Virus record (IMG/VR): IMGVR_UViG_3300010158_000201
Location: 1-33,368 of that record
DNA: 33,368 bases
DNA from: a virus
Strand: one strand, 5' to 3'
How positions within the stretch are numbered: the stretch's first letter is position 1; each line of letters starts with the position of its first letter. Of the stretch, positions 10,520-29,819 are shown piece after piece. The notes below the pieces were generated by a model, which saw nothing but the letters and a program-made list of their open reading frames with translations, was not told the origin of the DNA and did no database searches. The position numbers and the translations under genes were made by a program.

Positions 10520-13500
10520 ATGGCTGAATTTAAACTAGGTAGAATTAGATTTGTATGGAAAGGTCAATGGACTGTAGGAACTCCATATTTAATCGACGAC
10601 GTAGTAAGTAATGGTGGTAAGAGTTATATTTGTGTTGTAAACCACACTGCTGCTGGTCTCTTTAATACCGACTTGGATTATATACCAAGTAAATGGAATA
10701 TCGTTGCAGATGGCACACAATGGAGTGGCGATTGGCTTCCAAATCATTATTATAACCCAGGTGCGGTTGTTAAGTACGGTGCATTAGTTTACATTTGTAA
10801 AACTGGTCATACTTCTGCAACCTATGTATCTCCAACATATTTAGGGTTAGAGCAAGATTCAAACAAGTGGGAATTATTTGCCACTTCGTTTAACTGGGCA
10901 GGAACTTGGGGTGCTGCTACTAGATATCGAAAAAATGATTTTGTAGTTTACGGCGGAACTACCTATGTATGTAAAACTCCTCACGTGTCTGCATCTACAA
11001 CTGCCACTTTGACAGCTACAGGATTTACTGTGGCCGCCGGCACTGCAACATTAACTTATGCAAGTCAAGCAGTAGCTCCGTATGCTGTGGGATCAACTAT
11101 CACCCTAGCTACGTTTGCTCCAACGGTGACTAGTTCTCCAACTAATACAGTCAATGCAACATTTACAGTTTTAACTTGTACTACTACACAGTTAACATTT
11201 GCGTTAACTGGTACATATACAGTATCTGTATTAGGAACAGTTACAGGAACAAGTCAATTAGGATTAGAATTAGACTCGGCAAAATGGGATACTTTTAATC
11301 AAGGTATAACATATTTAGGAGATTGGAGTTCTTCTGCTGTTAGATATAAACAAAATGATGTAGTTAAGTATGGCGCAGATCTTTGGATTTGTACAACGCC
11401 ACATACATCTAGCGGAACTACACTTGATACCGGTAAGTTTAATGTGTTTGTTAACGGACTCCAATTTGAAAGTAGCTGGAATAATTCTACACAGTATCAG
11501 ATTGGCGATAATATAACTTACGGCGGCTATTCATATATTGCTAAGACAAATAATATTAATAAGCAACCAACTGCTAATGTTGGTGACTGGGCAGTATTTA
11601 CTACTGGATTCAACTTTGTAGGTGAATACAGTGACGCAACTAATTATAAAGTTGGAGATATTGTTAGAAACGGCGGCTATACATATGTTGCTAAGGCCGA
11701 TAATATTGCACAACTTCCTCAGTCAGCAACTGCCTATTGGTCAAGATTAAACAGCGGACTACGTTGGACAGATACTCCGCAAACTTACCTAGCAGCTAGT
11801 TCAGGTACTGTGACTGGTACTGGTAGCGGTGCTAAATTTGATGTAACTCGAATTGGTACTGTATATAATGTTACGTTGACTTCGGGTCAAGCCGGCACAA
11901 ATTACGCAGCACTAGATAGAATTAAAATTTTAGGAAGTGCTTTAGGCGGTATTAGTCCAGCGAATGATATTACAATTACTATTACAACAGTCTCAACTGG
12001 AGCAGTTGCCACATTTACAACTTCTGGTAGATCAGTAACATGGACGTCTGGAACAAGTTACCTATTAGGTGACACTGCATCATTTGGTGCTAATAGTTAT
12101 ATATGTATCAATCCGCATATTGCATCGAGCGGTAATAGACCAAATGCTGATACACAAGGCGATTATTGGAACTTACTAACTGCTGGTTCAGAAATGAACA
12201 TTCTTACCACAACTGGTGACTTGGCATACTACGGTGATAATGGTCCTCAAAGATTACCAGTTGGAACAAACGGTCAAGTTTTACGTAGCCAAGACGGTGT
12301 GCCAATCTGGGCAAACTACGGATTAATCAATAACTTAGTTTATGTAGGACCATTAGGTCGCGACGTAGCATATCCAGAAGCTGGAGCAACTATTGACCAA
12401 CCATGGAAGTCTGTTAGATTTGCAGCAAAACAAGTTGAAGAAGGATATTTAAACCCTCAAGCTAAAATGCTGTTGGTTAAAAATAAGCAGTTCATGATGA
12501 AAGAAATTACTAATTGGGTAATTTATACATATACTGTTAATATTTCAGCAGCTGAATCTACACAAGATGTGTTTACATGTGTAACAACTGCTAATCTAGT
12601 AGCTAACATGCCTATTAGTTTCACTGGAACTGTTGGCGGAGTAGTTGCAGGAACTACATATTATGTTAAAACAATTGTTAGCAATACAACATTTACTATT
12701 TCAGCATCGTCCGGCGGTTCAGTAAAACAATTAACTGATGGCACTGGCACAATGACTGGTACTTTAGTCTATGATCATGATTTCTGCGAACGTGATACAG
12801 GATTAATTGTTGATGCATTAGTACATGATATTACACACGGTGGTACTGGCAAGACTACAACGGCAGCAAAAGCATACTATACTGCCGCAGGCAATGCATA
12901 TATTAATAGTAATTTTGGTGCACAGACTACTCAAACAGTTGCAGCCTATAATTACCTAAGTACACTAGTAGCTAAAGTATTAAGTAACACTGCTTGGAGA
13001 AATTATCAAGCAATGAACGGAATTACTAGTGGTGTGATCCAAGTAATTGATACATCATTAACTGCTGAAGATGGCACTGCAACCAGGGCCGCCGACTTAA
13101 TATCAATAATTACCAACGGTATTCTTGCAGGCTCAGTGACAGCCATAGCAAATCCAATTTACCCTAACACTACTATTTCAGTTAAGACTGGTACATTTAC
13201 AGAAGTGTTACCAATTGTAATTTCTCCGTATACTGCTGTGGTAGGAGACGAGTTGCGCTCAACAGTTATCCAACCAGCGACTGCAAATGTATTGCTGGTC
13301 AACGATAAGGCAAAAACTACATCTGCACTAAATCGTATTGCCGCAGTTGCTGGTAATATTGTTCAAAATGTTGCAGTAACCCCCACTGCTGGCAATACAG
13401 AAACACAATATTTTGTCGGCGGATATGCAGGTAGTGGTACAACTACTACCGCAGTTGGCACAAAGACTTCAATTATATCAACAATTTTATCAAGCGGTCT

Positions 13501-23148: not shown

Positions 23149-24087
23149 ATGCCATTTATTAGCAGCATACGAGGAAATTACAGACAAGGAAACGTTGAAA
23201 GATATCCAGCTGAAAAATACGAGATTACCGGAGGTGATAAAGTATACACACTCGGTGGTTATAAAATACACATGTTCACCAAGACTGGAGAAGCTAAACT
23301 TACAGTAAATTATACTAAAAAATATGCAGAAGCAATGGGGCTAGCAGACGCTAGCGCCGGCCTGGTTGCTGATTATCTAGTTATAGCAGCCGGTGGATCT
23401 GGGGGGAATTTCTTTTCTACTAACGGCAACGGTGGCGGCGGCGCCGGCGGATATCGTGCAGGAAGTTCACCATTTACCACAACCTATGTTTCCGTTGGTA
23501 CTGGTGGCGGCCCTACTCCATCTGGCGGTGCTTTCTTTGCCAACGGTAGCCCATCATATATAGGCCCAATTTCATCTGTTGGTGGTGGTGGTGGCAGCAT
23601 GTATTATGGCAGTGGCCAACCAGGTGGTTCAGGTGGCGGAGCGGCAGCTAACGGCTGGGGTGTTGGTAGCGGCACACCAGGACAAGGTAATCCGGGAAGT
23701 AGCTTTGCATACTTCTGGACAGGCGGTGGCGGTGGCGGTTCAGGCGCTGCTGCTCCTAACCAACAAGGCGGCCCGGGAACTTCTAGTAGTATTACCGGGT
23801 CTGCAGTTGGTCGTGCAGGAGGCGGTGGAGGCGGTGGCAATAGTTCAGAGCCAGGTGGCGATGGATTTGACGGTGGCGGCCGTGGACACGGATCATGTCC
23901 ACGTTGGGGATATAGCTTTTATACATTCTATGTTGAGCCAGGTTGCAATTCTTGGGGCATACCTTTTGGTAGAGATAATACAGGCGGTGGCGGCGGCGCT
24001 GGCAGCTACTGGGCACCAAACATTGGTTGGTTCCAAGGATCAGGATACGGCGGCTCAGGCGTAGTTATACTTAAATATCCTACTTAA
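23149..24087 (+). CDS. Glycine-rich tail adhesin-like protein
   Basis: ATG 23149 follows AAGGAG. Residues 1-~80 form an ordinary beta-rich domain (RYPAEKYEITGGDKVYTLGGYKIHMFTKTG...VADYLVIAAGG). From ~80 to the end the protein is dominated by Gly runs (four or more in a row at several places) alternating with short variable stretches, and it ends in GYGGSGVVILKYPT. This head-plus-polyglycine pattern is that of phage glycine-rich domains and recalls the T-even gp38 tip adhesins, whose Gly-rich strands form a polyglycine-II lattice with receptor-binding loops. It directly follows a fibre gene, as gp38 follows gp37. Aromatic-rich loops (about residues 245-270, with Cys, Trp, Tyr) could be receptor-contact segments. 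The link to gp38 is by analogy, not clear homology. Confidence 0.65.
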   Translation: MPFISSIRGNYRQGNVERYPAEKYEITGGDKVYTLGGYKIHMFTKTGEAKLTVNYTKKYAEAMGLADASAGLVADYLVIAAGGSGGNFFSTNGNGGGGAGGYRAGSSPFTTTYVSVGTGGGPTPSGGAFFANGSPSYIGPISSVGGGGGSMYYGSGQPGGSGGGAAANGWGVGSGTPGQGNPGSSFAYFWTGGGGGGSGAAAPNQQGGPGTSSSITGSAVGRAGGGGGGGNSSEPGGDGFDGGGRGHGSCPRWGYSFYTFYVEPGCNSWGIPFGRDNTGGGGGAGSYWAPNIGWFQGSGYGGSGVVILKYPT

Positions 24088-24097
24088 TAAGAAATTT

Positions 24098-24520
24098 ATG
24101 CCACAGTTTAGATCAACATATAATATATTCAAAGACCCAGCAGGTGATACAATCCATGACGATAATTGGTTTGACTCTGACAAGCCAATTTATCCTCCAA
24201 CTTTTGATTGGGATTATCAACGTCCCATGACCATAGAGGATGTTGCTATATGGGAAATGATATGGTACTCATCTGGCGGATTTGCGTTATATGTAGCATG
24301 GTGTCCGTATGCTGAATTTTATATGATTACACATGAGCAAATTGTTCATAATCCTAGTAACTTAGAACTATTCTACGGGCCAATGGCTATGGAAAATGCA
24401 TATAAAAGGGCCAGAGAATTAGGAATGCAGGTATATTTAAATAAAATATGGGTGGACGATAAAGACATGTGGTTGCATGTTCCGCCTCCGCCTGAAGAAA
24501 AGAAAATTATTCTGTTGTAA
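24098..24520 (+). CDS. Conserved hypothetical protein, paralogue of 28758-29123
   Basis: This 140-residue protein starts at ATG 24098, 10 bases after the previous stop, with only a weak ribosome binding site. It has no recognised enzyme motif. It is rich in Trp, Tyr and Phe with a core IWEMIWYSSGGFALYVAWCP, AEFYMITHEQ, LFYGPMAMENAYKRARELG, and ends in a proline run and basic tail (VPPPPEEKK). The core matches the protein at 28758 (IYVAWDPFAEFYVIT, FYGPDAAHRVYRIANELGI), so the two are paralogues. It is the last + strand gene before the convergent dioxygenase operon, with a terminator directly after its stop. Function unknown; association with fibre genes suggests a virion or assembly role. Confidence 0.7.
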   Translation: MPQFRSTYNIFKDPAGDTIHDDNWFDSDKPIYPPTFDWDYQRPMTIEDVAIWEMIWYSSGGFALYVAWCPYAEFYMITHEQIVHNPSNLELFYGPMAMENAYKRARELGMQVYLNKIWVDDKDMWLHVPPPPEEKKIILL

Positions 24521-24527
24521 GACAATA

Positions 24528-24552
24528 AAAAAGCTCCGTTGAGGAGCTTTTT
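24528..24552. terminator. Bidirectional intrinsic terminator
   Basis: A perfect 10-base stem AAAAAGCTCC (24528-24537), loop GTTGA, and GGAGCTTTTT (24543-24552). It has a T-tract on the right for + strand transcripts and A's on the left that become T's for - strand transcripts. It sits between the + strand gene ending at 24520 and the - strand gene whose stop codon is 24551-24553, so it can end both. Confidence 0.9.
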
Positions 24553-25156
24553 ATTTGAATATAAAATTCATTGATATACTAATTCGATCGGTTCCACTAA
24601 GATTCTTATTAACCTGATGCAGCAAGTTTGATTTAAAAATTAATAATGTAGAATTTATAGGAGTATACGAACATGCTTTATATGATGCAGCAGTCAAGTC
24701 AGCATCAGCAATTGGTAAGTTACACATGTCAGTAAAGTGTTCTGAACTTTTAAATGTAATATCTCCGGCATTTTTTTCTGCACTTACATAATATACTGCA
24801 CTAAAATGCGAATTAGAATGCTGATGCAATTCTTGATAATTTCCCGGCATTGCAATATTAAACCAAAAATCGTGGCATTCTAACTCTTGTATTTCTTTCT
24901 TAACTCCAAATTCTTTAGAAAAATTTAATACATGTTGCTTACATGTCAAAATAAAATCATTTACAATTTGATCATTATCTTGCTTAGGATCGTAAGTCTC
25001 CATTGTGTTAAATGTGTCGCAAGCCCAATTTGTATTAACTTCAGAATTAAATTTTATTTTTAATGATTGAGCTTTGTTTGCAAGGTAACTATTGTGTTTT
25101 GAGAATTCTGCTAATAACTCCGCAAAAATTAATGTTGGAAACCATGCTTTTATCAT
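24551..25156 (-). CDS. Putative 2OG-Fe(II) oxygenase (TIGR02466/2OG-FeII_Oxy_5 type)
   Basis: This 201-residue protein shows the family pattern: MIKAWFPTLIF opening, then residues 109-123 (ELHQHSNSHFSAVYYV, with H111 and H113 as probable metal-site region), GDITF, and near the C-terminus LLIFKSNLLHQV (H180) and DRISISMNFIF (R191, probable 2-oxoglutarate contact). This matches phage and marine bacterial members of the family that act as Fe(II)/2-oxoglutarate-dependent hydroxylases of unknown substrate. Its ATG overlaps the stop of the upstream gene (4 bases), so it is the last gene of a five-gene operon. It ends in the shared terminator. Substrate unknown; a virion protein or a nucleotide/amino acid are both possible. 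Confidence 0.8.
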   Translation of the reverse strand: MIKAWFPTLIFAELLAEFSKHNSYLANKAQSLKIKFNSEVNTNWACDTFNTMETYDPKQDNDQIVNDFILTCKQHVLNFSKEFGVKKEIQELECHDFWFNIAMPGNYQELHQHSNSHFSAVYYVSAEKNAGDITFKSSEHFTDMCNLPIADADLTAASYKACSYTPINSTLLIFKSNLLHQVNKNLSGTDRISISMNFIFK

Positions 25157-25911
25157 GATGTAAATGAAATGTAAGACTTTAATCCTGAGTTTGTAGTCGG
25201 AGCAACTGGGGCAGGGGTTGAAACATCCTGCCTAGCTACCATAGGCGGTTGTCCTTGATCTGGACGAAATCCTAGGTTCTTTGCCATTTGATGTCGCTGC
25301 ATAGCAACTTCATCAGATACTTGCTGACCTTTAGGAACAGCCATGTGATCACCGATATTGTCTCGTTTGTCATACTTCCATTCAGCATGTGGACCGTTTG
25401 CATCTACATAATGAAAAAATCCCTGCACTTGCCATGCATCGTCCGGTGCCGTAAATTTTTCTCTCCAATGCTCTACATCAATTCCCCTATATATAGCCAT
25501 ATCGCCTGGTTGTAAATCAATAGGAGTACCGTCCATAAAAATTGGCCATGAATATGACGGATCGTTATACCAGAAATTAAAACACACTGTTGTTGAAATT
25601 TCACAAGCAGGACGATCTTGGTGGGAAGTTAACTCGTCGCCTGGACGATACACTCTAAAATACGAATAAGTAGGTAATAATTTTAACCCTGTAGTTTCTT
25701 CTACCTTGTGCTGTAATATTAATAACATTGCTTCCATTAACGGATCTGCATATTTTGAATGTGCTCCAATAACGTGATCTATATCGGGGCGAAAATCTTG
25801 AATCTCGTCAAATAATGCATACTGTGTTATTAGATCAGTAAATTCTGCAGATACTGCAAGTCTAACTACTATAAATTTATTTTCTTTAAACTTTTTAATT
25901 AAATTACTCAT
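25153..25911 (-). CDS. 2OG-Fe(II) dioxygenase
   Basis: This 252-residue protein has the HxD motif in TSHQDRPACEIS (H97, D99) and a distal His in GIDVEHWREKF (H148, with R150 two residues on). Between them are the strands YSYFRVYRPGDEL and LQPGDMAIYRG of a double-stranded beta-helix. These are the metal and 2-oxoglutarate positions of the dioxygenase superfamily. The last ~75 residues (from about 175) are a polar Gln/Pro/Ala-rich tail with little predicted fold, ending in GLKSYISFTS. A strong ribosome binding site (AGGAGG) lies just before its ATG, inside the end of the upstream gene, with which it overlaps by 4 bases. I recall similar enzymes in cyanophage genomes, annotated only as oxygenases. 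Substrate unknown. Confidence 0.85.
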   Translation of the reverse strand: MSNLIKKFKENKFIVVRLAVSAEFTDLITQYALFDEIQDFRPDIDHVIGAHSKYADPLMEAMLLILQHKVEETTGLKLLPTYSYFRVYRPGDELTSHQDRPACEISTTVCFNFWYNDPSYSWPIFMDGTPIDLQPGDMAIYRGIDVEHWREKFTAPDDAWQVQGFFHYVDANGPHAEWKYDKRDNIGDHMAVPKGQQVSDEVAMQRHQMAKNLGFRPDQGQPPMVARQDVSTPAPVAPTTNSGLKSYISFTS

Positions 25912-26756
25912 TTTGTAATCCTCCTATCTTTTGTTATAAATTTCTTTGTTGCAGTATAAGGACATGTAGGTTGTTCATTTTGAGATTCAACTCGATCAAC
26001 CAGTCGTCTTTTAGATTGATAAAACCCTACCGAGTCTCTACCGTCTCGTTGGAATAACAAATTGTGCGCACCGTGCTGTCTATCCCACTCGTCTTTAGTT
26101 ACTAAATGATTCTTAATAATCACATTACGCTCAGTCATAGGATGTAACATAACTAGTGGAGTAAGCGGTGGAATAGTAAACGTTTGAGGCTGGTCTTTAG
26201 TTTCAACAAAATAATTGATTTCGGTACCATGATTATATTTAAATTCGATCACTGCTGGCAAATTAGTAAGAGATCCAATAAATTTTCTAAAATGCCATGT
26301 AGGTTGTGTCCAGGTAAAATATATCTCTTCCGTTGTCTTAAACGCCCACGGACTTGATATTTTAACGTTGCCCCCATGTTCTCCAGCAAACCCTTGAAAC
26401 TGTCGAGGATTGTGTGAATTGGCAGTTGTTACACTATTATTTGATGCTTCCCATGTAAATGCAGGATTTTCTGTATCTGAGTTAGTATTAATTTTTAAAT
26501 CCATTTCAAACCAAGACGGAATAACAATTCCTTTTTTATACAGCTCAATAATCCCAACGCAATTTTTAATAGTTGCATTTTTTGGATCTTCATTCCCGTG
26601 TTCGTCTTTTCCTACTTTTGGAGTTTTCTTAAACCAATCAGGAAGATAATTTAATGCCGAATCTATTTTTGCATAATCATATGCGTGTGGCACGAATGTA
26701 AAACAATCTAAAACCACATCTTTTTTCTTAAAGAAAAAATTTACTAAATTTTTCAT
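25908..26756 (-). CDS. Conserved hypothetical protein in dioxygenase operon
   Basis: This 282-residue protein has no HxD...H motif that I can defend. Visible features are an aromatic-rich N-terminus (DCFTFVPHAYDYAKI), LPDWFKKTPK, TIKNCVGIIELYKKGIVIPSW, FAGEHGG, a Trp-rich stretch around 175-185 (YFTWTQPTWHFRKF), and TFTIPPLTPLVMLHPMTERN. The pattern 'P-W-F-K-K-T-P ... TIKNC.GI ... G-x-x-I-P-x-W' is one I associate with uncharacterised proteins of T4-like aquatic phages found near 2OG oxygenases. It overlaps both neighbours by 4 bases, so translation is coupled. It could be a cupin-like partner of the dioxygenases or a substrate-recognition protein; the sequence does not decide. Confidence 0.7.
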   Translation of the reverse strand: MKNLVNFFFKKKDVVLDCFTFVPHAYDYAKIDSALNYLPDWFKKTPKVGKDEHGNEDPKNATIKNCVGIIELYKKGIVIPSWFEMDLKINTNSDTENPAFTWEASNNSVTTANSHNPRQFQGFAGEHGGNVKISSPWAFKTTEEIYFTWTQPTWHFRKFIGSLTNLPAVIEFKYNHGTEINYFVETKDQPQTFTIPPLTPLVMLHPMTERNVIIKNHLVTKDEWDRQHGAHNLLFQRDGRDSVGFYQSKRRLVDRVESQNEQPTCPYTATKKFITKDRRITK

Positions 26757-27421
26757 ATCTGTATTTGTCTCGCTGATGGAATTGGAAAATGTGATGATGA
26801 TATTTCTTTAACAAAAAATACCTGTGTTAATCTTGGCTGTTTATCCGGTCCTACAAATTTTGTTACTCCGTGATGCTGGGAGCCGTCGTATGCAATTAAT
26901 CGATTGTATATATTATTAAATCTAATAGTTTCTTCGTACTGTGAATTATTTTCTTTTAATTTAGCATTATAAAACTCTGACTTGTTTTTATCAAAATTTA
27001 AAAACATCTCATGTTTCACATCTAAGTGAATTGGAACAATACCAATAGACTTTGGTTTAAATATAGTAGTACCGCAGTCAGGAGAAATTGCAGGATTTAA
27101 ATAGATCAACCCTGCATATGTTGAATCGTCAATATGCACCCAACCTTGATTTATGTGTTCGTACATAGCAGGTTCGATCATTTGAAAATATGTTTCTACA
27201 CGCCATGTTAGATCTTGTTCTTTTTTTAAATTAAAAGATAATGACATTAGTTTTTTACAAAACTGATCAAAATATACAGGAGCAATTTGATTTATTGGTT
27301 TAGATCTTTTTCCGGGCCACGGTATGCTACTAGTTGATTTATATTCAAAAGATAATGCAAGATCACGAACTGCATCTGGATTGTCAAAAAAATTGTCAAC
27401 GCATATAGTTGGAAAATACAT
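26753..27421 (-). CDS. Putative 2OG-Fe(II) oxygenase-like protein
   Basis: This 222-residue protein opens with FPTICVDNFFDNPDAVRDLAL, typical of a group of phage and bacterial proteins annotated as DUF6445-like/2OG oxygenases. It has VHID (H96, D98) followed by STYAGLIYLNP, a distal YDGSQHHGVTKF (H183 or H184) and PRLTQVFFV (R197). The spacing and the 'YAGLIYLNP...CGTTIF' strand pair fit a double-stranded beta-helix dioxygenase. Its start lies 1 base after the stop of the prolyl-hydroxylase-like gene and its end overlaps the next gene by 4 bases. Activity is likely if the HxD...H triad is real; substrate unknown. Confidence 0.75.
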   Translation of the reverse strand: MYFPTICVDNFFDNPDAVRDLALSFEYKSTSSIPWPGKRSKPINQIAPVYFDQFCKKLMSLSFNLKKEQDLTWRVETYFQMIEPAMYEHINQGWVHIDDSTYAGLIYLNPAISPDCGTTIFKPKSIGIVPIHLDVKHEMFLNFDKNKSEFYNAKLKENNSQYEETIRFNNIYNRLIAYDGSQHHGVTKFVGPDKQPRLTQVFFVKEISSSHFPIPSARQIQI

Positions 27422-27422
27422 A

Positions 27423-28055
27423 TTAACTTAGTTGCCTATCTTTAAGCCAGGTGACTAATGCATATTTTGTACCTTTAGTCACAGGATGCGCAATGTGTGC
27501 ATACGCAAAATTAGAAGGAAATAATAGAAGCATTCCTGCTTGAGGTTTAATTTTTACACCAAAATGCGGAAACTCTAGTTCCCCACCTTCGTAATCGTCG
27601 TTAAGGTATACAATAGCCGATATAGCTCTACCGGAATGTGTTAGCCCGTCAAAATGTTGCTTGTATTCCTCACCTTCTCCATATTTTAATAACGAATAAT
27701 CTTCGTGAAACAACGATCCCTCTATTCCGTAGCGCAGTGCATACGGAATACTAGCAGCTAACAACATTAAGTTAAGCTGGTTATGCACGTTTTGTAATGC
27801 AGCATTATTGCCAATCCTACCCAGATGACTCACTGCCATCAATTTATTAGTTCTTATATTTTGATAAGCGCCAGCACCAAATGTTTCTGCCTTTTGCCAA
27901 TATGCACCTGAGTTTGGAGTTGCGGCTTGGTCCTCTACCATAGCAATAGTTTCTTGAGGGTTAGGCCAGGCATTTTCAAAAATTTCAATGCATCCGCCTA
28001 CCACTGCATCGGGAACTAACTCCCCTGTAAAAAATCCATTAATAAAAGCTGACAT
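27423..28055 (-). CDS. Prolyl 4-hydroxylase-like 2OG-Fe(II) dioxygenase
   Basis: First gene of the operon. The 210-residue protein has the prolyl-4-hydroxylase catalytic pattern: YKQHFDG (H134, D136), then AIVYLNDDYEGGELEFP, LLLFPSNFAYAHIAHPVTKGTKYALVTWL with H190 as the distal iron ligand and K197 as the 2-oxoglutarate-binding lysine. Such enzymes hydroxylate peptidyl proline (or related residues) using Fe(II), oxygen and 2-oxoglutarate. The N-terminal ~95 residues (NAWPNPQETIAMVED...) are the usual helical/beta support region. GAGGA lies 7 bases before the ATG, and a perfect late-promoter octamer lies 34 bases before it. Viral relatives are common in aquatic phages. Its substrate here may be a virion protein (see proline-rich neighbour). 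Confidence 0.92.
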   Translation of the reverse strand: MSAFINGFFTGELVPDAVVGGCIEIFENAWPNPQETIAMVEDQAATPNSGAYWQKAETFGAGAYQNIRTNKLMAVSHLGRIGNNAALQNVHNQLNLMLLAASIPYALRYGIEGSLFHEDYSLLKYGEGEEYKQHFDGLTHSGRAISAIVYLNDDYEGGELEFPHFGVKIKPQAGMLLLFPSNFAYAHIAHPVTKGTKYALVTWLKDRQLS

Positions 28056-28088: not shown

Positions 28089-28096
28089 TATTTATA
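28089..28096 (-). promoter_or_regulatory. T4-type late promoter of dioxygenase operon
   Basis: On the - strand this reads TATAAATA, a perfect match to the T4 late consensus, 33 bases upstream of the ATG at 28055 and the only gap before this five-gene operon. T4-like late promoters are recognised by a gp55-type sigma factor with the sliding clamp; that machinery lies outside the window. Confidence 0.7.
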
Positions 28097-28169: not shown

Positions 28170-28754
28170 ATGAGTAAAATTAACGTAATTTATAATATTG
28201 ATAGTAAGGAATTGAATGTAGGAGTGACTGAGCCGAATGCGTTTCATACAGATCTTCTTTTTAGTTTTACATCAAACTCTGATACAGAAATACTGAACAT
28301 TAAAGGAATAGCATTTGGATTCGATACATTGTATAACGGATCAAAATTTTATCCGCCGCATACTGTAGAATATGACTCAGCAATGAAGGATGGTATATTT
28401 GAAAGAGCAGAGTGGTCATGTATTCCTGAAACAGATTATACTGTTAAAATATGGGTTGAGTTTAACGGACAGAAAACTGAAGTATCACATATGTTTACTA
28501 GTCCGCGTCCGAAGGCCATATACCCCTCGTGGGTATGGGATGCAGAGGCAAAAGTCTGGAATCCACCAATACCTATGCCTGAAGGTCCATTAAAACAGTG
28601 GAGTGAAACAGAAAATGGATGGATTGACATACTTGCAGATTTCCCTGCATTGCCGGCAGATTTTGTACCGCCCCCGGCAGATGCTCCTACAGGCCCAGGC
28701 CCTGGAGTTCCGCGTCCTGTAGATGCTATTTTGCCCCCAGGTGTTACACGGTAA
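28170..28754 (+). CDS. Structural-like protein with proline-rich C-terminus
   Basis: This 194-residue protein starts at ATG 28170 after TAGGAAA. Residues 1-~112 look like an Ig/fibronectin-type beta domain (TVKIWVEFNGQKTEVSHMFTS). Residues 119-136 carry PSWVWDAEAKVWNPPIP, a Trp/Pro motif I know from cyanophage structural hypotheticals, followed by WSETENGW. The last third (159-191) has 12 prolines in 33 residues, with PPP, GPGPG and LPPG. It lies opposite and 114 bases from the prolyl-hydroxylase-like gene and 3 bases before the next gene. Function unknown. The proline-rich tail makes it a candidate substrate for the neighbouring hydroxylase (inference). Confidence 0.75.
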   Translation: MSKINVIYNIDSKELNVGVTEPNAFHTDLLFSFTSNSDTEILNIKGIAFGFDTLYNGSKFYPPHTVEYDSAMKDGIFERAEWSCIPETDYTVKIWVEFNGQKTEVSHMFTSPRPKAIYPSWVWDAEAKVWNPPIPMPEGPLKQWSETENGWIDILADFPALPADFVPPPADAPTGPGPGVPRPVDAILPPGVTR

Positions 28755-28757
28755 TCA

Positions 28758-29123
28758 ATGCCAATTTTTAAGTCAACACAAGAAATTTTAGAAAATCCTT
28801 GGGTTAACGTATACGGCAGTAGGACTGCAAATACCACCGGATTACCTTGTCATTACGAATGGGATAACCGTTGCCCGTTAGAAGTTGCTGACGTTCACAT
28901 ATGGGAACAATTATATTTTCAAGAAGGAAACGTAGGAATATATGTAGCATGGGATCCATTTGCTGAGTTTTACGTGATCACGTATAATATGTTTTTAAAT
29001 GAGTCCCACGGAATACAAACATTTTATGGTCCTGATGCCGCTCATCGAGTATATAGAATAGCAAACGAACTAGGAATCGAATTATCGTTTAAAAACGTGT
29101 GGACTAACTCCACTGTAGTTTAA
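28758..29123 (+). CDS. Conserved hypothetical protein, paralogue of 24098-24520
   Basis: This 121-residue protein opens MPIFKSTQEILENPWVNVY and shares with the 140-residue protein the core IWEQLYFQEGNVGIYVAWDP, AEFYVIT, FYGPDAAHRVYRIANELGI and a final K-x-x-W. It lacks that protein's proline-plus-basic tail. It is 3 bases downstream of the proline-rich gene, probably translationally coupled, and its last 20 bases overlap the end of a convergent - strand gene. No catalytic motif is seen. Having one copy on each side of the inverted dioxygenase operon suggests a role linked to fibre proteins or assembly; this is inference. Confidence 0.75.
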   Translation: MPIFKSTQEILENPWVNVYGSRTANTTGLPCHYEWDNRCPLEVADVHIWEQLYFQEGNVGIYVAWDPFAEFYVITYNMFLNESHGIQTFYGPDAAHRVYRIANELGIELSFKNVWTNSTVV

Positions 29124-29361
29124 ACAACATCATTGATCTTTCGTTGGCAAATTTAATTTTACGCCAACTGCTACTATCTTTAATTATCTGCACTTTATAT
29201 ACACTATTCCATAAAGATTCTAATAATAACATCCTTGCCTCATCAGATAATTGTTGAGCAAATAAATCTTTGTGCCGTGCAATTAATAAACCGTTTGCAC
29301 GAATAAACCATAAATTTATATCAGATTTGTCTATTATATCTATAGTATATTCATCTAGCAT
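29104..29361 (-). CDS. Small hypothetical protein, 85 aa
   Basis: The ATG at 29361 shares one base with the stop of the Nudix gene (TAATG), a normal phage operon arrangement that supports it as real. The protein opens with IDIIDKSDINLWFIRANGLLIARHKDLFAQQL, then a helix-like SDEARMLLLESLWNSVYKVQII, and ends in a basic-aromatic stretch. No family recognised. Its 3' end overlaps the convergent gene at 28758-29123 by 20 bases. No transmembrane segment or signal peptide is evident. Could be a short regulatory or accessory protein. Confidence 0.6.
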   Translation of the reverse strand: MLDEYTIDIIDKSDINLWFIRANGLLIARHKDLFAQQLSDEARMLLLESLWNSVYKVQIIKDSSSWRKIKFANERSMMLFKLQWS

Positions 29362-29819
29362 TATAATAATTCTACAATATCAATTATTGTTTGTATCTTA
29401 GTTTGTATAATACGATTGCGTAAGCTAAGATCCAATCCTTTATGTACAGGCTTTGGCAGATTATCTAATTCAAACCACCCCCATGCAATATGTTCGTTGC
29501 TTAGTACTGGTATAAATTCAGATTCCACTACGCAGAAATATGTATGAAAGTTAAACATACTATCGTTGCTAACAAAACGTTCAAGCGGAATAGTCTTTTT
29601 AATATCAGGCATTGCACCTAATTCTTCTTCAATTTCTCTTTGCAAGCCCTGCCATGCTGACTCGTTAGAGTGATTAGTACCGCCTACTAATCCCCAACGA
29701 CCTGCATGTTTGCCCTCAGCTTTTTGTAATAATAGAAATCGTTTTGTTGATCGAGCACAAATTAATGCCCCTGAACAATCGATTATGTCTGAGTTAGAAG
29801 TTATAATTCTAACCTCCAA
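29361..29819 (-). CDS. Nudix hydrolase
   Basis: A complete Nudix box, GX5EX7REUXEEXGU, lies at about residues 47-69 (G47, E53, R61-E62, E65-E66, G68), preceded by LLLQKAEGKHAGRWGLVGG, the usual strand before the box. Nudix enzymes cleave nucleoside diphosphates linked to another moiety with Mg2+; the substrate here (for example a nucleotide sugar, oxidised dNTP or capped RNA end) cannot be read from sequence. Length 152 residues is typical. The listed TTG start at 29817-29819 comes straight after an in-frame stop. A perfect GGAGG at 29813-29817 instead points to a start at ATA 29802-29804, which overlaps the gp15 stop. Either way the catalytic domain is intact. Confidence 0.92.
   Translation of the reverse strand: MEVRIITSNSDIIDCSGALICARSTKRFLLLQKAEGKHAGRWGLVGGTNHSNESAWQGLQREIEEELGAMPDIKKTIPLERFVSNDSMFNFHTYFCVVESEFIPVLSNEHIAWGWFELDNLPKPVHKGLDLSLRNRIIQTKIQTIIDIVELL

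Follow-up and report, generated by a model that had tools for sequence, protein, structure and literature searches.

A fibre-region operon of four 2OG-Fe(II) oxygenase-like genes in a large tailed phage and the linkage of such genes to glycine-rich fibre-tip genes

Introduction

Why would a phage carry a block of oxygenase-like genes turned against the strand of its fibre genes? The 33,368-base-pair (bp) virus record IMGVR_UViG_3300010158_000201, called the window here at its full length and with its open reading frames (ORFs) called mechanically, holds such a block on the minus strand (28055-24551): four genes for proteins resembling 2-oxoglutarate (2OG)-Fe(II) oxygenases and one further gene. 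The source is a large contractile-tail phage, with fibre proteins of 2705 and 3576 amino acids (aa), a tail-sheath-stabiliser gene and virion structural genes. A preliminary description of the locus proposed that the enzymes hydroxylate virion proteins rather than serve nucleotide metabolism. Cyanophages are known to carry abundant 2OG genes, for which roles in host metabolism or DNA repair have been put forward (PMC3037559, PMC9602691, PMC9964418). The proposed modification of virions is partly supported by the analysis described below and is narrowed to glycine-rich tip genes: gene content, position, motif conservation and linkage are established, and a tip protein is the proposed substrate.

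Results

Five genes form one inverted operon

The five ORFs, designated P5 to P1 from the promoter side (lengths in Table 1), are joined by three 4-bp overlaps and one gap of a single nucleotide (nt). Plus-strand fibre genes lie to the left of the block and plus-strand fibre-region genes (28170, 28758) to its right. The four oxygenase-like genes and the gene of a protein with a predicted dUTPase fold make up a single operon, which a late-type promoter motif precedes. The tight inverted arrangement given in the preliminary description was confirmed, with conserved ligand patterns in the four oxygenase-like products.

The operon had also been credited with a perfect late promoter and a terminator of its own. 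Two copies of the motif TATAAATA were counted in the window, where chance alone would give 6.1; it is no commoner than chance, and its mere presence is therefore uninformative, so it is the position upstream of the first gene that counts. Three of the five ATAAATA sites in the window lie 30-40 nt 5' of a gene start, namely those of the 3576-aa fibre gene at 10520, the gene at 28170 and the operon. Of 72 related runs of 2OG genes, 16 have ATAAATA near their first gene (1.4 expected), and 12 of 324 inner genes have it nearby. This enrichment agrees with the late timing claimed earlier, and on its late-type motif the operon may be expressed late. A terminator-like hairpin follows the last gene, as had been described.

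The near-identical relative L007 differs from the operon by three synonymous and two non-synonymous changes, and a selection test based on it was rejected since the changes are too few. A defence-system check with PADLOC returned matches only to generic '2OG, CRISPR-associated' models, on which ground the operon was rejected as a defence system.

Four oxygenase-like proteins

P5 matches PF13640 with an E-value of 3.5e-17 (63.6 bits against a cut-off of 27). Its ligand H134 is kept in 100% of 51 sequences, H187 in 98% of 52, and D136 in at least 90% of a 24-sequence alignment. Profile and HxD...H ligands together place P5 in the 2OG-Fe(II) oxygenase superfamily. The closest solved relatives are the protein hydroxylases B. 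anthracis prolyl 4-hydroxylase (P4H), PBCV-1 vCPH and PHD2, together with PiuC; the P5 profile matches the vCPH structure 5c5t at E 2.6e-11.

P4 matches DUF6445/PF20043 (E 3e-12), a family of undescribed function. H96, D98, H184 and R197 are invariant in an alignment of 33 sequences and kept in 97-98% of up to 71 relatives. Among the four proteins a fold was predicted for P4, and the AlphaFold2 model (mean confidence score pLDDT 93) shows the double-stranded beta-helix of 2OG oxygenases. The best structural match of the model is P. putida P4H (Z 13.2), an enzyme also solved in complex with EF-Tu, followed by OGFOD1 and PHD2 (both Z 12.9). The predicted fold, the HxD...H pattern and the distal Arg place P4 in the superfamily.

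P2 gave no Pfam and no PDB match in profile searches and only a weak match to the P5 profile, and its probable assignment rests on the ligand pattern, in which H97, D99, H148 and R150 are kept in 100% of 77 relatives. The name ferrochelatase was rejected for P2: it is the PHROG name of phrog_2954, and the sequence has an invariant HxD...H. The PHROG labels 'minor coat protein' (phrog_1644, DUF6445) and 'ferrochelatase' (phrog_2954) both look wrong and are repeated in RefSeq phage annotation.

P1 matches PF13759 (4e-19) and, above cut-off, TIGR02466; H111, H113, H180 and R191 are kept in 100% of 67 relatives. The iron-ligand motifs reported earlier are therefore of two kinds, HxD...H in P5, P4 and P2, and in P1 the HxH of another subfamily, also seen in the solved relative 3bvc. 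The four genes are not evident duplicates of one another, as had been stated, though distant homology links the P1 and P5 families (hhalign 96%, E 1.3e-9).

The fifth protein has a predicted dUTPase-like fold

P3, described earlier as an unknown protein, has no Pfam or NCBIfam match. It is predicted to be beta-rich, and every match listed by VIA-align was a dUTPase (Z up to 10.2; 2.5 A over 120 residues); the Foldseek match to dUTPases reached only E 1.2e-3. P3 appears to share its fold with the dUTPase family and differs from it in the catalytic motifs, which are not conserved in the P3 family. The motif-3 Asp is replaced by Glu in the window protein and by Asn in near relatives, and dUTPase activity is unlikely for this reason. 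The iron-ligand triad HxD/E...H is likewise not conserved among 41 sequences of the family; for this and for its dUTPase-like fold, P3 was rejected as a fifth dioxygenase. A role as a non-catalytic adaptor is suggested.

When the P3 sequence alone was used as query, one near-identical relative came up, and profiles were needed for further ones. In relatives the same slots are filled by phrog_17480, an uncharacterised family of about 240 aa, one member of which weakly matches the P3 family. Genes of phrog_17480 stand beside halogenase or 2OG genes at L092:10618-11340, L302:8374-9096, L253:9144-9869 and other loci.

Related cassettes in other viruses

Loci were collected by two scans of viral contigs with the P4 and P2 profiles and supplemented with five phage or window-related loci. 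The resulting 93 non-redundant loci include 76 with runs of at least two superfamily genes (P3 counted) and up to ten. Because the family hidden Markov models drift within the 2OG superfamily, the labels P1, P4 and P5 in relatives denote superfamily membership only. Locus L008 repeats the order P5-P4-P3-P2-P1 with two extra 2OG genes, and the glycine-rich genes on either side of it are on the opposite strand; in Pelagiphage Mosig oxygenase-like genes sit between fibre and neck genes. In a tally of flanking genes, tryptophan halogenases account for 26 of 147, phrog_2295 (the glycine-rich family of the window) for 19 of 147 and tail fibre assembly for 7.

The position and enzyme types of the cassette recur across many viruses. 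The recurrent map has a glycine-rich gene followed on the same strand by a tip-partner gene, then the enzyme genes on the opposite strand, then a second tip-partner gene on the first strand, with the enzyme set varying.

Three further observations concern these loci. Two more PF13759-like 2OG genes stand within the fibre series, between glycine-rich and tip-partner genes, at L092:13200-14400 and in L320. Jumbo-size virus records (L256, 281 kb; L288, 357 kb) also hold a tip-linked 2OG cassette. Carbamoyltransferase genes (PF16861/PF02543) lie opposite the tip-gene strand in or near the slot at L282:6367-7983, L291:5073-6704 and L284:1674-3335.

Linkage to fibre-tip genes

In a reverse search, loci were chosen by the tip-partner family alone, which gave 57 non-redundant loci. 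A 2OG gene lies within 8 kb in 45 of them, and two or more in 35; a glycine-rich ORF is present in 52, the P3 family in 30, a halogenase in 24 and a carbamoyltransferase in 4. The nearest 2OG gene is less than 300 bp from the partner gene in 29 of the 57 loci and on the opposite strand in 21 of these 29. Counted as pairs within 5 kb, which are not independent of one another, 219 of 239 2OG-partner pairs and 36 of 41 halogenase-partner pairs are antiparallel.

In rotation tests on 11 longer records, 27 of 49 2OG genes lay no more than 5 kb from a partner gene, against 6.9 expected (p 0.00005), and so did 10 of 11 halogenases, against 2.6 expected (p 0.0002). In a ten-genome test (eight genomes with both gene types), 51 of 109 2OG genes lay within 10 kb of glycine-rich ORFs, against 21 expected (p 0.0007). 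The phrog_2295 profile as anchor was significant at 10 kb and not at 5 kb, and the link at 2-5 kb was seen only with the tip-partner family. These figures come from related genomes, with contigs treated as circular and ORFs called mechanically, and the thresholds were not preset, whereas the fibre link itself had been predicted beforehand.

The preliminary description had called for a survey of co-occurrence with giant fibres. ORFs of at least 1000 aa showed no enrichment (34 2OG genes within 10 kb, 55 expected), and an association with giant fibres as such was rejected; strong linkage was found to glycine-rich tip genes and their partners, the opposite of the missing link with fibre genes that would have spoken against the earlier proposal. 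In different viruses the enzyme genes thus show linkage to virion structural genes, which we take as one mark of a virion-protein modification system.

Neighbouring genes and repeats

The glycine-rich gene left of the operon, whose product is the proposed substrate, follows the fibre genes, and we presume a resemblance to the S16 gp38-type glycine-rich tip adhesins of T4-like phages. The two tip-partner copies of the window match no Pfam family above cut-off, no NCBIfam family and no PHROG; their family recurs beside glycine-rich tip genes and may be a fibre chaperone. The 43-nt direct repeats within the two copies flank the cassette and are a possible site of cassette exchange. A NUDIX hydrolase gene at 29361-29819 of the window overlaps a tail-sheath-stabiliser-like gene.

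Table 1. Coordinates of the operon, its signals and neighbouring features in the window
Feature	Positions	Strand	Basis or remark
P5, 2OG-Fe(II) oxygenase, prolyl-4-hydroxylase-like, 210 aa	27423..28055	-	PF13640; H134-x-D136...H187
P4, DUF6445 family protein, 222 aa	26753..27421	-	DUF6445/PF20043; H96-x-D98...H184...R197
P3, phrog_7084 family, predicted dUTPase-like (beta-clip) fold, 282 aa	25908..26756	-	structure comparison
P2, probable 2OG-Fe(II) oxygenase, 252 aa	25153..25911	-	phrog_2954; H97-x-D99...H148-W-R150
P1, 2OG-Fe(II) oxygenase-like, 201 aa	24551..25156	-	PF13759/TIGR02466; H111-x-H113...H180...R191
Late-promoter motif TATAAATA	28089..28096	-	40 nt 5' of first-gene ATG
Terminator-like hairpin, 10-bp stem and T run	24528..24552	-	between convergent genes, after last operon gene
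Glycine-rich fibre-tip protein, proposed substrate	23149..24087	+	phrog_2295, Pfam Gly_rich_2; 29% Gly
Fibre-tip partner gene, copy 1, 140 aa	24098..24520	+	brackets operon on left
Fibre-tip partner gene, copy 2, 121 aa	28758..29123	+	paralogue, 32% identical to copy 1
Fibre-region protein, 194 aa, divergent from operon	28170..28754	+	own ATAAATA motif at about -40
43-nt direct repeat inside copy 1	24288..24330	+	81% identical to 28939-28981
43-nt direct repeat inside copy 2	28939..28981	+	pairs with 24288-24330 across cassette

Discussion

Proposed substrate of the operon enzymes

The recurring slot and its enzyme sets suggest, without proving it, that these phages chemically tailor the part of the virion that contacts the host. 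For the operon of the window we lean, with little more than even confidence, towards a late cassette, open to exchange, whose enzymes hydroxylate glycine-rich proteins of the fibre tip. Newly made tip proteins or their partners would be hydroxylated on side chains late in infection, in a 2OG-dependent reaction before or during assembly, with P3 serving as a non-catalytic adaptor. That P4 and P5 resemble protein hydroxylases counts for a tip-protein substrate. A wider proposal, to which we give somewhat less than even weight, is that many large tailed phages have, beside the glycine-rich tip genes, a swappable antiparallel cassette that gives their receptor-binding tips non-standard chemistry, and that host recognition would evolve through swaps of tailoring enzymes in addition to changes in the tip sequence. 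We only tentatively list its components as 2OG hydroxylases, flavin halogenases, O-carbamoyltransferases and the dUTPase-fold adaptor. Halogenases and O-carbamoyltransferases would bring further chemistry in relatives: the new hydroxyl could be carbamoylated where a carbamoyltransferase is present, and aromatic residues could be halogenated where a halogenase is present. Receptor-binding tips would in this way gain non-standard residues and be diversified as enzyme cassettes are swapped, for which the repeats in the partner genes offer a possible route.

Several results weigh against a tip substrate. No 2OG genes were found at 12 of the 57 tip loci, many phages also hold 2OG genes elsewhere in the genome, and the association with glycine-rich ORFs at 5 kb gave p 0.19 in the ten-genome set. 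The tip-partner seed alignment was built from 2OG loci, and the counts are inflated by shared descent for that reason. Collagen-like GXY runs of at least five triplets are absent from eight fibre-region proteins of the window, and a collagen-type substrate was rejected on this ground. Linkage by itself does not show function, fibre regions are plastic, and the support is genomic. The P4 model also resembles the small-molecule oxygenases HygX, SnoN and EvdO2.

This last resemblance, to oxygenases of antibiotic pathways, bears on the alternative that survives best, in which a halogenated or hydroxylated metabolite is made or a host polysaccharide is decorated. Iyer et al. 2021 proposed a metabolite or capsule role for the S-SSM6a cluster (PMC7824862), and relatives of the operon contain both carbamoyltransferases and halogenases, which are typical of small-molecule pathways. 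We consider this tailoring unlikely: the window operon encodes no carbamoyltransferase, halogenase, transporter or scaffold-making enzyme, and the recurring neighbour of the enzymes is a fibre-tip gene pair.

Also improbable, and placed second, is a reading in which the fibre region ends in a plastic insertion site and the oxygenases, as hitch-hikers there, have targets unrelated to fibres, either host proteins or 2OG and nitrogen metabolism. Hot-spot regions are known in cyanophage genomes (PMC3037559), the flanking partner genes contain direct repeats that could favour exchange, 2OG genes occur elsewhere in genomes, and roles in host metabolism are the published guess. Set against this are the recurrent filling of the slot by a narrow modifying set (the 2OG, halogenase, carbamoyltransferase, P3 and phrog_17480 families) and the enrichment of late-promoter motifs before related runs. 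Modification or repair of nucleotides or DNA, in which bases would be the substrates of the 2OG enzymes and nucleotides would be dealt with by the dUTPase-fold protein, would fit the P3 fold and the DNA-repair role proposed for cyanophage 2OG genes (PMC3037559; PMC9146016), but is very improbable given the Glu or Asn at motif 3 in the window's group, the absence of TET/JBP or AlkB family matches above cut-off, the late-type promoter and the fibre position.

If a tip substrate is correct, dozens of aquatic-phage 2OG oxygenases and halogenases now filed as auxiliary metabolic genes would have one common, testable role, and covalent tailoring would join the means by which phages diversify host recognition. 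The active site of VirX1, the halogenase of cyanophage Syn10, is large and accessible and its substrate range is broad, the test compounds in the review being aromatic only (PMC8407142); VirX1 would gain a candidate natural substrate. The recurrent, quantified architecture makes a long-open question testable.

Comparison with known systems

In a literature search of papers outside subscription, we found no report of phage-fibre hydroxylation and no paper tying 2OG clusters to glycine-rich fibre-tip genes; a cyanophage transcriptome paper leaves 2OG genes unmentioned. A Baltic virome paper relates viral P4H to tail-fibre collagen and calls its use cryptic (PMC9301287). The PBCV-1 P4H is, like P5, virus-encoded, with viral peptide substrates, and 4-hydroxyproline occurs in PBCV-1 viral proteins (Eriksson 1999), as cited in PMC9301287. 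However, PBCV-1 is an algal virus with a single enzyme and collagen- or proline-rich substrates, whereas the window fibre proteins lack GXY runs.

In S-SCSM1, very many diverse 2OG genes (24) occur in one phage; the accessible text of that paper reads them as host metabolism, proposes no fibre link and states that their function was not specifically investigated (PMC9602691). The S-SSM6a jumbo cyanophage cluster has halogenase, 2OG and carbamoyltransferase genes, the classes found in cassette relatives, and the available part of its description reads it as a secondary-metabolite or capsule pathway and notes no fibre-tip slot (PMC7824862). Its combination of carbamoyltransferase and halogenase is absent from the window operon and present in some relatives.

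The fibre genes of syn9 (gp32-34) and its 'tail fiber assembly' genes (gp38-39) lead straight into two halogenase genes (gp41-42), a gene of the P3 family and a 2OG cluster (gp45-54), all on one strand. In S-CREM1 a 'collagen-like' glycine-rich gene occurs together with a halogenase, a P3-family gene and a long 2OG row. Like the window, syn9 gp41-54 and S-CREM1 ORF69-80 hold a diverse 2OG run with DUF6445, 'ferrochelatase' and P3-family members 3' of fibre genes; unlike it, they share the strand of the fibres and include halogenases, whereas the window operon is inverted, shorter and without a halogenase. Multi-oxygenase clusters as such are already known in phages (syn9, S-CREM1, S-SCSM1). 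What is new here is the quantified link of 2OG clusters to fibre tips, rather than a new enzyme family.

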